From contig JAQVHL010000007.1 of the NCBI GenBank assembly GCA_028696185.1, positions 1-61,088 of the forward strand: 61,088 bases of DNA, in the 5' to 3' direction. Every line of letters begins with the position of its first letter. Within the stretch, counting starts at the first letter, position 1. The stretch is from Halothiobacillaceae bacterium. GTDB lineage: Bacteria > Pseudomonadota > Gammaproteobacteria > Halothiobacillales > Halothiobacillaceae. The notes beneath the pieces were generated by a model. It saw only the letters and a program-made list of their open reading frames with translations. It was not told the origin of the DNA and did no database searches. The position numbers and the translations under genes were made by a program. This document shows positions 18,380 to 54,196 of the stretch, one piece after another.

Positions 18380-18396
18380 GGCAGTGCAGGTGAAGG

Positions 18397-18580
18397 GGTC
18401 TTCCGGGGCGCCGGTGTCGTTCTCGACCTTGAACCGGAAGGTTCAAGCTGGAGGTTGCCAGAACGCTTCAGGCTTCCCGCACGGAGCGGACATGCACAAC
18501 AGCGTTCGGAAGGCTCCCCCCGGGGTCGCGCATTAAGGCTCAAGGGGCATGGAACTAACTGCCGGGCGCCTCAGAAGACT
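18397..18580 (-). ncRNA. ssrS: 6S RNA
   Basis: On the minus strand the segment shows the 6S fold. The ends pair (GTCTTC at 18579-18574 with GAAGAC at 18403-18398, then GGCGCC-type arms). A GTGCATGTCCGCTCCG stretch followed by GGGAAGCC corresponds to the E. coli GAGCATGCTCGGTCCGTCC/AGAAGCC region. The apical hairpin CTTGAACC-TTCC-GGTTCAAG matches the E. coli CTTGAACC...GGTTCAAG hairpin. The length is about 184 nt, and it sits between zapA and fau. 6S RNA binds the sigma70 RNA polymerase holoenzyme in stationary phase. End positions are estimated from the terminal stem to within a few bases. Confidence 0.93.
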
Positions 18581-47327: not shown

Positions 47328-47440
<113 letters not shown>

Positions 47441-50573: not shown

Positions 50574-51338
50574 ATGAGCGGTGTGGATAGGCAGACCCTG
50601 ATCGCGCATTGCGATGAATTACTGAACGTTGCCGCGTTTTCCGATTACGCCCCCAACGGTCTGCAGGTCGAAGGCACGGAGCGTATCCAGCGGCTGGTGA
50701 GTGGTGTGACGGCCTGTCAGGCCCTGCTGGACGCCGCCGTGGATTTTGGCGCGGATGCGGTGCTCGTCCATCATGGCTATTTCTGGAAAAATGAGGACGC
50801 GCGCATCTTGGGTATGAAACGTCGGCGCCTGGGTACCCTGATGCGTCATGACATCAACCTGATTGCCTACCATCTGCCACTGGACGCGCATCCGGGCCTG
50901 GGCAACAACGCCTTGTGGGCCGAGGCCCTGGGGTTGCGCGATATCCAGCGGTTCATCGGTCGTCCTGGGAGCGAACTGGGCGTCTGGGGTGAATTGCCGG
51001 AACCCATGAGCCGCACGGAGCTGATCGCGCGACTGGAGGCGGTGCTGGGGCGGCCTGTACTGGCATTGGTTGGGCATGAGGGGCCCTTGCAACGTATCGG
51101 CCTGTGCAGCGGGGCGGCCCAGGGGTATATCACCGAGGCGGCTGAACTTGGCCTGGATGCCTATCTGAGCGGCGAAGTCTCCGAGCACACGCTGCACTGC
51201 GCACGCGAGTGCGCAATCGATTATTTTGTCTGCGGACACCATGCCACAGAGCGTTTCGGGGTGCGGGCGCTGGGCGAGCATCTGGCGCGCGTCTTCAAGC
51301 TGGAACACCGCTTTGTCGATATCGACAACCCGGTTTAA
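50574..51338 (+). CDS. Nif3-like dinuclear metal centre protein (YbgI)
   Basis: A 254-residue protein of the Nif3/YbgI family. Metal ligands lie in VLVHHGYFW (two His), the YHLPLDAHPGLGNN segment, and the late DYFVCGHHATERFG, with E and H in the pocket. It has NGLQVEG near the start. YbgI homologues are also called GTP cyclohydrolase I type 2-like, but the activity is unproven. The ATG at 50574 is chosen over a longer frame inside hinT. Confidence 0.92.
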   Translation: MSGVDRQTLIAHCDELLNVAAFSDYAPNGLQVEGTERIQRLVSGVTACQALLDAAVDFGADAVLVHHGYFWKNEDARILGMKRRRLGTLMRHDINLIAYHLPLDAHPGLGNNALWAEALGLRDIQRFIGRPGSELGVWGELPEPMSRTELIARLEAVLGRPVLALVGHEGPLQRIGLCSGAAQGYITEAAELGLDAYLSGEVSEHTLHCARECAIDYFVCGHHATERFGVRALGEHLARVFKLEHRFVDIDNPV

Positions 51339-51399
51339 GTGCATGCACCGTCGTGTACTGTCTTAAAAAAAACCTGACAATTTCGTGTGATATGTTTGA

Positions 51400-51628
51400 G
51401 CGAAGCCCCTCCAGTCCGCCCGATATAAGCAAGGCGCGGGGGGGTATCAAGGCGCTTTTCTTGACCTTGATGCAGGGTTTAAGGAATCCTTCGGCTCCCC
51501 GAGGGCTTGATTGGAGTTCATCGGGGGGATCCGGCGGATGGACGTGCCATGCGCTGCAAAGCGCGAAATGGCCCGTGGATTCTTGTGCCATTACCATTGG
51601 GATGGGGCGGAAGACGCCCCGTTTTTTT
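51400..51628 (+). ncRNA. Structured leader or small-RNA candidate upstream of petABC
   Basis: The 313-bp gap between the Nif3-family gene and petA has no convincing CDS but is strongly structured. CCTTCGG-CTCC-CCGAGGG forms a 7-bp hairpin at 51488-51505. GCCATGCGCT-GCAA-AGCGC, a bulge, then ATGGC forms a 10-bp stem with a GNRA loop at 51546-51572. An intrinsic terminator follows at 51604-51628. At least eight GGA words lie between 51480 and 51612. It could be an attenuated petABC leader or a separate sRNA. The transcript start is not defined; I estimate it near 51400. Confidence 0.5.
51604..51628 (+). terminator. Intrinsic terminator 24 bp before petA
   Basis: GGGGCG-GAAGA-CGCCCC is a perfect 6-bp GC stem followed by G and seven Ts (51622-51628). 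It ends the Nif3-family transcript, or the structured leader, just ahead of the petA ribosome-binding site (GGAGGAGA). A terminator so close to petA leaves no room for a separate promoter between them. Confidence 0.75.
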
Positions 51629-51651
51629 GTCAGCCTTCCGTGGAGGAGACC

Positions 51652-52248
51652 ATGCCGGACAATGGCGTTAACACTTCCCGGCGCCGCTTCCTGACCGGTG
51701 CAGCCACCGTGATTGGTGGCGTGGGCGCCGGTTTCGTCGCGGTGCCCTTCCTGTCCTCGTTCCAGCCCAGCGCCAGGGCGCAGGCCGCTGGCGCACCGGT
51801 CGAGGTGGATGTGAGCAAGCTCGCCCCCGGCCAGATGGTCACGGTGGAATGGCGCGGCAAGCCGGTGTACGTCGTGCATCGCACCCCCGCCATGCTGGAG
51901 AGCCTGCCCGGTCAGGATGGCCATCTGCGCGACCCCCAGTCCAAAGAGTCTATCCAGCCGGAGGATGCCCGCAACGAAGCGCGTGCGGTCAAGCCCGAGT
52001 ACCTCATCGTGGTGGGTATCTGCACGCATCTGGGTTGCGCGCCGACCTACCGTCCGGATGTGGCCCCCGCCGATCTGGGTGCGGAATGGAAAGGGGGGTT
52101 TTTCTGCCCCTGCCACGGTTCACGCTTCGACATGGCCGGTCGTGTGTACAAATCGGTTCCGGCCCCGACCAACCTTGAAGTGCCGCCGTACACCTATCTG
52201 AGCGACACCGTCGTGCTGATCGGCGCCGAGGAAGGAGCTGCTTCATGA
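51652..52248 (+). CDS. petA: Ubiquinol-cytochrome c reductase, Rieske iron-sulfur subunit
   Basis: A 198-residue bc1-complex subunit. It has a Tat-type start (SRRRFLTG) with one membrane anchor (about 15-35), and cluster-binding loops CTHLGC and CPCHGS that hold the [2Fe-2S] centre with two Cys and two His. The ATG at 51652 follows GGAGGAG. It passes electrons from ubiquinol to cytochrome c1. First of petABC; its stop overlaps petB. Confidence 0.97.
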   Translation: MPDNGVNTSRRRFLTGAATVIGGVGAGFVAVPFLSSFQPSARAQAAGAPVEVDVSKLAPGQMVTVEWRGKPVYVVHRTPAMLESLPGQDGHLRDPQSKESIQPEDARNEARAVKPEYLIVVGICTHLGCAPTYRPDVAPADLGAEWKGGFFCPCHGSRFDMAGRVYKSVPAPTNLEVPPYTYLSDTVVLIGAEEGAAS

Positions 52249-53459
52249 TTGCCAAGCTCTACCGCTGGGTGGATGACCGTCTGCCCGTGTCGCATTTCTG
52301 GAACGCGCATCTGGCGCAGTACTACGTTCCGAAGAACTTCAACCTCTGGTATTTTTTCGGCTCGCTGGCGCTTCTGGTCTTCGCCGTACAGATCCTTTCA
52401 GGCATCTGGCTGACCATGAACTACAAGCCTTCGGCCACCGAGGCCTTTGCCTCCGTCGAGTACATCATGCGCGATGTGGAGTGGGGCTGGCTGATCCGCT
52501 ACATGCACTCCACCGGCGCCTCGATGTTCTTCGTGGTGGTTTACCTGCACATGCTGCGCGGAATGATGTACGGCTCGTACAAGAACCCCCGCGAGCTGGT
52601 GTGGATCTTCGGCATGCTGATCTATCTCGTGCTGATGGCCGAAGCCTTCATGGGCTACCTGCTGCCCTGGGGCCAGATGTCTTACTGGGGTGCACAGGTC
52701 ATCATTTCCCTGTTCGGCTCGATTCCGTTCATTGGGGAGGAACTGGCACTGTGGATCCGCGGTGACTATGTGGTTTCCGATGTCACGCTCAACCGTTTCT
52801 TCGCCCTGCATGTCATCGCCCTGCCGCTGGTGCTGATCTTCCTGGTGGGGGGGCACATCATGGCCCTGCATGAAGTCGGCTCGAACAACCCCGAAGGCGT
52901 GGACATCAAGAAGCACAAGGACGCCGAAGGCCGTCCTCTGGATGGAGTGCCGTTTCATCCGTACTACACGGTGAAGGATCTGTTCGGTGTGGGCGTGTTC
53001 CTGTTCGTGTTTGCCCTCATCCTGTTCTACCTGCCGGAGATGGGAGGCTACTTCCTGGAGAAGCCCAACTTCGAGCCGGCCAACCCGATGAAAACCCCCG
53101 AACACATCGCACCTGTGTGGTACTTCACCCCGTTCTACGCCATCCTGCGCGCTGTGCCGGACAAGTTCCTCGGTGTCGTGGCGATGGGGGGAGCGATTTT
53201 CGTGCTGTTCCTGCTGCCCTGGCTCGATCGCAATCCGGTTCGTTCCATTCGCTACCGCTCCACGGCGTTCAAGGCCCTGCTGGCCATGTTTGTCGTGAGT
53301 TTCGTGGTACTGGGCTGGCTTGGCACCCAACCGGCCACCGGCCTGCTGACGCTGCTGGCGCAGTTCTTCACCCTGCTGTACTTCGGTTATTTTGCCGCCC
53401 TTTGGTATGTCAGCGGACGCGAGAAAACCAAGCCCGTGCCGGAGAGAATCACCCGATGA
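52245..53459 (+). CDS. petB: Ubiquinol-cytochrome c reductase, cytochrome b subunit
   Basis: A 404-residue integral membrane protein with about eight to nine helices. It has the heme-binding His residues (YMHSTGASMFF and HVIALPLVL), the GYLLPWGQMSYWGAQVI segment and the Qo-site PEWY-equivalent region (PVWYFTPFYAILR). It carries the Qo and Qi ubiquinone sites and two b hemes. Overlaps petA and petC by ATGA. Confidence 0.98.
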   Translation: MIAKLYRWVDDRLPVSHFWNAHLAQYYVPKNFNLWYFFGSLALLVFAVQILSGIWLTMNYKPSATEAFASVEYIMRDVEWGWLIRYMHSTGASMFFVVVYLHMLRGMMYGSYKNPRELVWIFGMLIYLVLMAEAFMGYLLPWGQMSYWGAQVIISLFGSIPFIGEELALWIRGDYVVSDVTLNRFFALHVIALPLVLIFLVGGHIMALHEVGSNNPEGVDIKKHKDAEGRPLDGVPFHPYYTVKDLFGVGVFLFVFALILFYLPEMGGYFLEKPNFEPANPMKTPEHIAPVWYFTPFYAILRAVPDKFLGVVAMGGAIFVLFLLPWLDRNPVRSIRYRSTAFKALLAMFVVSFVVLGWLGTQPATGLLTLLAQFFTLLYFGYFAALWYVSGREKTKPVPERITR

Positions 53460-54196
53460 AGCCCGTTATCGCACTGTTTTTCCTCTGCCTGCTGCCCTGG
53501 ACCGCGCACGCCGCAGGCGGGCATGGCGTGACGCTGGACAAGGCCGGGATCGACCTCCAGGACACCGAATCGCTCAAGCGCGGAGCGGAAATCTTCGTAC
53601 AGCGCTGCCTGAGCTGCCATTCGGCGCATTTCATGCGCTACAACCGCGTGGGGACCGACCTGGGCCTGTCCGTGGAGGAGGTCAAGGCACGTCTGATTGC
53701 CGGGGCTGCCAAGCCTGGCGATACGATGCAGTCAGGCATGCCCGCCGCCTACGCAAATCAGGCGTTTGGCGTCACGCCCCCGGACCTGACGCTCTCTGCC
53801 CGCCTGCGTGGCGCGGATTGGCTCTACACCTATCTGCGCAGCTTCTATTCCGACGAGGCGCGTCCCTTCGGTGTCAATAACGTCGTATTCAAGGACGTAG
53901 GCATGCCCAATGTTTTCTGGCGCGAGCAGGGCCAGCAGCAGGGGCAATTCGTCACCGTCAAGAACGGCGAAAATGAATCGAAAGCGCTTGAAGGATTGAA
54001 GCTTGTGCAGCCCGGCACGCTCACCCCCGAGCAGTTCGACGCCATGATTCGCGATCTGGTCGGTTTCATGGTTTACATGGCTGAACCGGCCCAACTGGAG
54101 CGTAAATCACTGGGTATCTGGGTGCTGGCCTTCATCGCCCTGTTCACCTTCGTGATGTTCCTTCTCAAGCGCGAATACTGGCGTGATGTGAAGTAA
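53456..54196 (+). CDS. petC: Ubiquinol-cytochrome c reductase, cytochrome c1 subunit
   Basis: A 246-residue periplasmic heme protein anchored by a C-terminal helix (about 220-240). A signal peptide (cleavage near AHA), the heme c motif CLSCH and the axial Met in the GMPNVFW-type region fit cytochrome c1. The ATG at 53456 overlaps the petB stop. Confidence 0.97.
   Translation: MKPVIALFFLCLLPWTAHAAGGHGVTLDKAGIDLQDTESLKRGAEIFVQRCLSCHSAHFMRYNRVGTDLGLSVEEVKARLIAGAAKPGDTMQSGMPAAYANQAFGVTPPDLTLSARLRGADWLYTYLRSFYSDEARPFGVNNVVFKDVGMPNVFWREQGQQQGQFVTVKNGENESKALEGLKLVQPGTLTPEQFDAMIRDLVGFMVYMAEPAQLERKSLGIWVLAFIALFTFVMFLLKREYWRDVK

Follow-up and report, generated by a model that had tools for sequence, protein, structure and literature searches.

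A predicted petABC leader bearing an intrinsic terminator in a Halothiobacillaceae bacterium, with counterparts in part of the family

The nif3-petA Gap and Its Features

The window, that is, the whole stretch of DNA analysed here (61,088 nt from a Halothiobacillaceae bacterium, assembly GCA_028696185.1, contig JAQVHL010000007.1, positions 1-61,088, forward strand), contains the genes nif3, petA, petB and petC in this order, all four confirmed by Pfam (Table 1); petABC encodes the respiratory cytochrome bc1 complex. The space between the nif3 stop at 51338 and the petA ATG, given as 313 bp in a preliminary description made from the sequence, is indeed 313 nt long, and the adjacency of nif3 and petA is retained in 62 of 106 petA loci. 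A petA start further upstream, which would turn the terminator described below into coding sequence, was considered and rejected: the frame is open back to a TTG at 51511, but homologues, a TAT signal beginning at residue 2 and a good Shine-Dalgarno sequence favour 51652. Elsewhere in the window, Rfam searches identified two ordinary RNA genes, a 6S RNA (18396-18580, minus strand, 87.1 bits) and a bacterial small SRP RNA (47337-47433, plus strand, 63 bits).

Table 1. Coordinates of genes and predicted features around the nif3-petA gap
Feature	Position	Strand	Basis
nif3 (DUF34/NIF3), gene upstream of the gap	50577..51338 (start approximate)	+	Pfam PF01784, E 1.2e-64
GC-rich inverted repeat 5' of the likely promoter, probably outside the leader RNA	51405..51447	+	Folds; 51339-51460 z -0.57
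Likely petABC promoter: -35 CTTGACC (51460-51466), 17-nt spacer, weak -10 GAATCC (51484-51489)	51460..51489	+	Conservation and profile rank
Predicted petABC 5' leader, start inferred	51496..51651	+	Distance from promoter; z -3.09 for 51496-51630
Leader hairpin 1	51497..51526	+	MFE and centroid; stable in stepwise folding
Leader hairpin 2, GCAA-capped arm 51546-51572	51527..51582	+	MFE; stepwise folding
Weak alternative hairpin competing with the terminator 5' arm, possible antiterminator	51583..51610	+	Stepwise folding, prior to synthesis of the 3' arm
Intrinsic terminator with U7 tract	51600..51628	+	-16.6 kcal/mol (our own finder); missed by simple scan
Shine-Dalgarno sequence GGAGGAG of petA	51642..51648	+	Sequence
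petA, Rieske iron-sulfur subunit	51652..52248	+	Pfam PF10399, PF00355
petB, cytochrome b	52245..53459	+	Pfam PF00033, PF00032
petC, cytochrome c1	53474..54196 (start approximate)	+	Pfam PF02167

The textbook terminator that had been claimed just ahead of petA is real. Its stem pairs 51604-51609 with 51615-51620 (GGGGCG and CGCCCC, around a GAAGA loop), is lengthened by U.G and A-U pairs, and is followed by seven U (51622-51628), the last of them 23 nt ahead of the petA ATG. A simple consensus scan missed it (0 terminators found, with 1.4 expected from shuffled sequence); the probable cause is that the stem continues into the U-tract. Our own finder reported no other terminator in the gap. As had been proposed, the remaining 23 nt leave no room for a promoter, and no promoter-like site was found at 51629-51651.

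A Conserved Putative Promoter Site Upstream of the Terminator

Where petABC transcription starts was approached through the nif3-petA gaps of other genomes. In gaps from outside the family (28, after dropping eight loci resembling duplicates of family genomes), the heptamer CTTGACC was present in 22 (100 shuffles gave 0.29 on average and never more than 2), and a GANAAT-like hexamer was common 17 nt downstream of it. Among the 25 family gaps other than that of the window, none carries CTTGACC, which the window itself has, and 21 carry TTGAC[CG] (shuffle mean 4.8, maximum 10). When a profile was built from the 22 outside sites, the window being excluded, and run along both strands of the window (122,112 positions), the site at 51460 ranked first, with a score of 21.2 versus 12.9 for the runner-up (training range 16.2-35.2); the second-best site within the gap scored below 0. 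The -35 box dominates this profile because the training sites were picked by CTTGACC. The -10 element of the window is poor, though another petA leader (L058) has GGAATCCTT at almost the same position.

Given the conserved site and its profile rank, the petABC transcript was placed as starting near 51496, within about 3 nt either way, a position inferred from that of the promoter. The terminator is thus most likely preceded by the promoter, and transcription of petABC has to pass through it, in support of the proposal that transcription either reads through or starts upstream. The terminator, some 105 nt downstream of the predicted start, likely sits inside the petABC leader, and it stands between the first gene and a promoter predicted by conservation, as in an attenuator. 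The preliminary description had let the leader RNA interval begin at 51400; both the promoter site and the distribution of structure indicate that the RNA probably begins near 51496 instead.

Other sequence elements were encountered in these gaps. A box ATATTCTNATG, 3' of the -10 element, is common to 7 of the 28 outside-family gaps (L104, L105, L110, L121, L122, L128 and L130) and occurs in 0 of 26 family gaps. Conversely, a box CTTGTTTGAC stands upstream of petA in two genera of the family, denoted here g3 and g4, letter-identical in 20 of the 26 family gaps and absent from all 28 outside gaps. This box exceeds the length needed for a -35 hexamer, and in 10 of the 26 family gaps it lies within GATTAA[TC]GACACTTGTTTGACG; it may be a regulator site.

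Folding of the Predicted Leader

The plus strand of 51400-51632 folds with -106 kcal/mol (z -3.09), a level that 1 of 200 shuffles reached; on the minus strand, folding of the gap is ordinary (z +0.20). The excess of structure is confined to the predicted transcript, with z -3.09 for 51496-51630 versus -0.57 for 51339-51460. The inverted repeat at 51405-51447 was consequently rejected as part of the leader RNA, since it lies upstream of the likely promoter in a stretch of ordinary folding. The two hairpins proposed ahead of the terminator are present, although the GCAA-capped stem consists of 5 + 5 pairs separated by a 3-nt bulge and not of the unbroken 10 bp that had been described.

Folded without the terminator, the leader loses 9.4 kcal/mol of stability. 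Before the 3' arm of the terminator is made, its 5' arm can pair at 51583-51610, and stepwise folding of the window leader gave only this weak alternative and no strong antiterminator fold. Considering that no strong competitor to the terminator was found, termination should be the default.

Terminators and Structure ahead of petA in Relatives

Relatives were sampled at 26 petA loci, from 26 of the 27 genomes of the family, and at 80 loci of named genomes; the window is the sole representative of its genus in the family comparison. Our terminator finder was run on 98 petA upstream regions, of up to 200 nt each, and gave a hit for half of the family members (13 of 26) versus 6 of 72 others. In seven family members, namely the window and 6 of the 10 members of g3, the terminator lies 27-29 nt before the petA ATG. 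A second genus of the family thus shares the placement seen in the window, though not the hairpin sequence; the g3 terminators comprise three different hairpin sequences at one position, which speaks for selection on the presence of a terminator and not on its sequence. In g4, 6 of 10 members carry a terminator 115-116 nt before the ATG, downstream of the g4 promoter box. None of the five members of a further genus, g2, has a terminator, and a promoter-like site stands at the corresponding place before petA; by PetA identity, g2 is nearest to the window for two of its members. The absence of the terminator, as judged by our finder, in 13 of the 26 family members, including all five of g2, indicates that it is dispensable.

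As a background, 79 co-directional gaps of at least 100 nt were taken from 409,595 bases of three genomes with a crude gene caller. Eight of these control gaps had terminators, in three cases at a distance of 8-50 nt from the following start and in five further up; the window petA is missing from these hits, probably because the gene caller took an earlier start. One-sided Fisher tests of the family against this background gave p values of 0.002 and 5e-5, which ignore relatedness, the family members not being independent.

Searches with the gap DNA in 57 genomes and with the leader in 274 genomes returned, besides the window, only short, chance-like matches, among them one of 20 nt in G043; a 25-nt match in G226 has no petA nearby. 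No hairpin sequences common to different genera were found among the family petA loci. Non-conservation of the hairpins in relatives, which the preliminary description had named as counting against its proposal, was thus observed for hairpin sequence between genera and not for the position of the terminator. Neither is strong folding of the leader supported as a family trait, given that z was -2.5 or lower in just 4 of 48 leaders (L031, L043, L058 and L125); two g2 upstream stretches (L047 and L051) fold equally strikingly.

Within g4, a covariation test on 8 of the 10 sequences covered a hairpin near the leader start and another downstream of the terminator, with 95.5% of the cells paired. 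The downstream helix has four pairs with changes on both sides, and the two helices jointly scored 0.367, compared with 0.197 for shuffles, none of which (0 of 500) scored as high; the signal was lost when the partners were slid. Covariation of the downstream hairpin suggests that in g4 the folded part of the leader RNA also extends past the terminator. One g4 leader (L036) holds, between its leader hairpin and its terminator, some 270 bp of strongly self-complementary DNA resembling a small mobile element.

A Model of Premature Termination and Its Alternatives

These observations can be integrated in a model in which transcription would start near 51496 from the promoter at 51460-51489, and RNA polymerase would first make the two strong hairpins and then reach the terminator. 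By default, some polymerases would stop there, releasing an RNA of about 130 nt, and petABC would be transcribed solely by those reading through. The output of petABC would thereby be set, and possibly regulated, after initiation, in an attenuator-type control. We hold this reading, a petABC leader with premature termination and expression by read-through, to be the probable one, with reasonable if not high confidence. Many petABC transcripts would then probably be abandoned early and some let through. By layout the leader would be attenuator-like, strict membership of that class being defined by read-through that depends on a signal; that such a signal operates here, as part of the premature-termination reading, is a tentative suggestion. 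The terminator, the conservation of the promoter, the layout and its recurrence are computed features, and the start site, the efficiency of termination and any regulation of read-through are what we infer.

The same RNA could be read as the product of a stand-alone sRNA gene, the 51496-51628 transcript acting in trans on other mRNAs while petABC lives on read-through. Its own predicted promoter, its length of about 130 nt, its strong fold and its U7-tailed terminator would fit such a gene, and so would the short promoter-to-terminator stretch of g4 with its conserved hairpin. Nevertheless, the sequence is not conserved outside the window genome, the arrangement always stands in front of petA, and g2 has the corresponding promoter-like site before petA without any terminator; this explanation is consequently considered unlikely, with a modest chance of being right. 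More improbable still is that the terminator just ends run-on transcripts from nif3, with a petABC promoter elsewhere or with enough leak to make it inconsequential for regulation. It is true that no second terminator was reported in the gap to do this work, and that terminators before co-directional genes do occur, near the next start or further up, as the control gaps illustrate. However, with a conserved promoter upstream of the terminator, petABC transcripts meet it too, only 23 nt are left after it, and 7 of the 26 family members share the 27-29 nt placement.

Two further mechanisms appear very unlikely. Ribosomes translating a frame across the terminator might prevent its formation, and several frames of the window leader are open across it, one of them in the petA frame. 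Against such translation-coupled control, relatives retain neither the frame nor its length nor any peptide, no conserved leader peptide or short frame ahead of the terminator was found in the 23 leaders examined, and the evidence cited above puts the start of petA at 51652. A so far undescribed class of ligand-binding riboswitch, to which the compact fold ahead of the terminator might lend itself, is given an equally slim chance: the leader has no Rfam match at the gathering threshold and its best permissive matches are to unrelated families (E 2.5-2.7), in agreement with the earlier failure to recognise a known motif by eye; no aptamer-like core is common to the family, and the only alternative fold is weak. 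Hence, from the original proposal of an attenuator or riboswitch leader, or of an sRNA with read-through, the layout of an attenuator or a 5' UTR-derived sRNA is retained, with the promoter upstream of the terminator, and the riboswitch is not, for want of an Rfam family, conserved hairpins and a strong antiterminator.

If petABC is gated by premature termination at the leader terminator, read-through would determine, in this family, the capacity of a complex central to respiration. Some family genomes have a terminator behind the corresponding promoter-like site and some do not, which offers a natural comparison. A more far-reaching version, which we regard as a long shot, is that in members of the family, whose named close relatives are Halothiobacillus and Guyparkeria, the bc1 operon would be under regulated premature termination, with terminators that change in sequence but hold their position, and with the released RNA itself acting as a regulator, linking bc1 synthesis to the state of electron transport or to iron-sulfur supply.

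Comparison with Known Systems

The window contains a real terminator-bearing petABC leader whose layout recurs in part of the family, and by that layout it is of a kind already established for other genes. No report of petABC attenuation or of a petABC leader terminator was found in the open-licence PMC literature. Control of the bc1 complex after initiation is little described, and the one case found, according to the available part of the report, is that of Neisseria meningitidis, in which the trans-acting sRNA NrrF pairs with the petABC leader (-43 to -30) and represses petABC (PMC5586341). In both instances petABC would be under RNA control through its 5' UTR, but in Neisseria the regulator acts in trans, and the available part of that report describes no leader terminator (PMC5586341).

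The layout proposed here finds closer counterparts at other genes. In E. coli, mapping of RNA 3' ends has revealed premature termination in 5' UTRs (PMC7815308, as far as its available text goes), with 3' ends inside the 5' UTR as inferred for petABC; those ends were measured and concern other genes, whereas the present one is predicted. Likewise, the parts available of two other reports describe sRNAs derived from 5' UTRs, the rhlI sRNA of Pseudomonas aeruginosa (PMC6786874) and Rli51 of Listeria (PMC11394854), the latter reported both to attenuate its own gene and to act in trans (PMC11394854). The short RNA predicted for petABC would resemble them in arising from the 5' UTR of a gene, a likeness of layout between unrelated genes and organisms.
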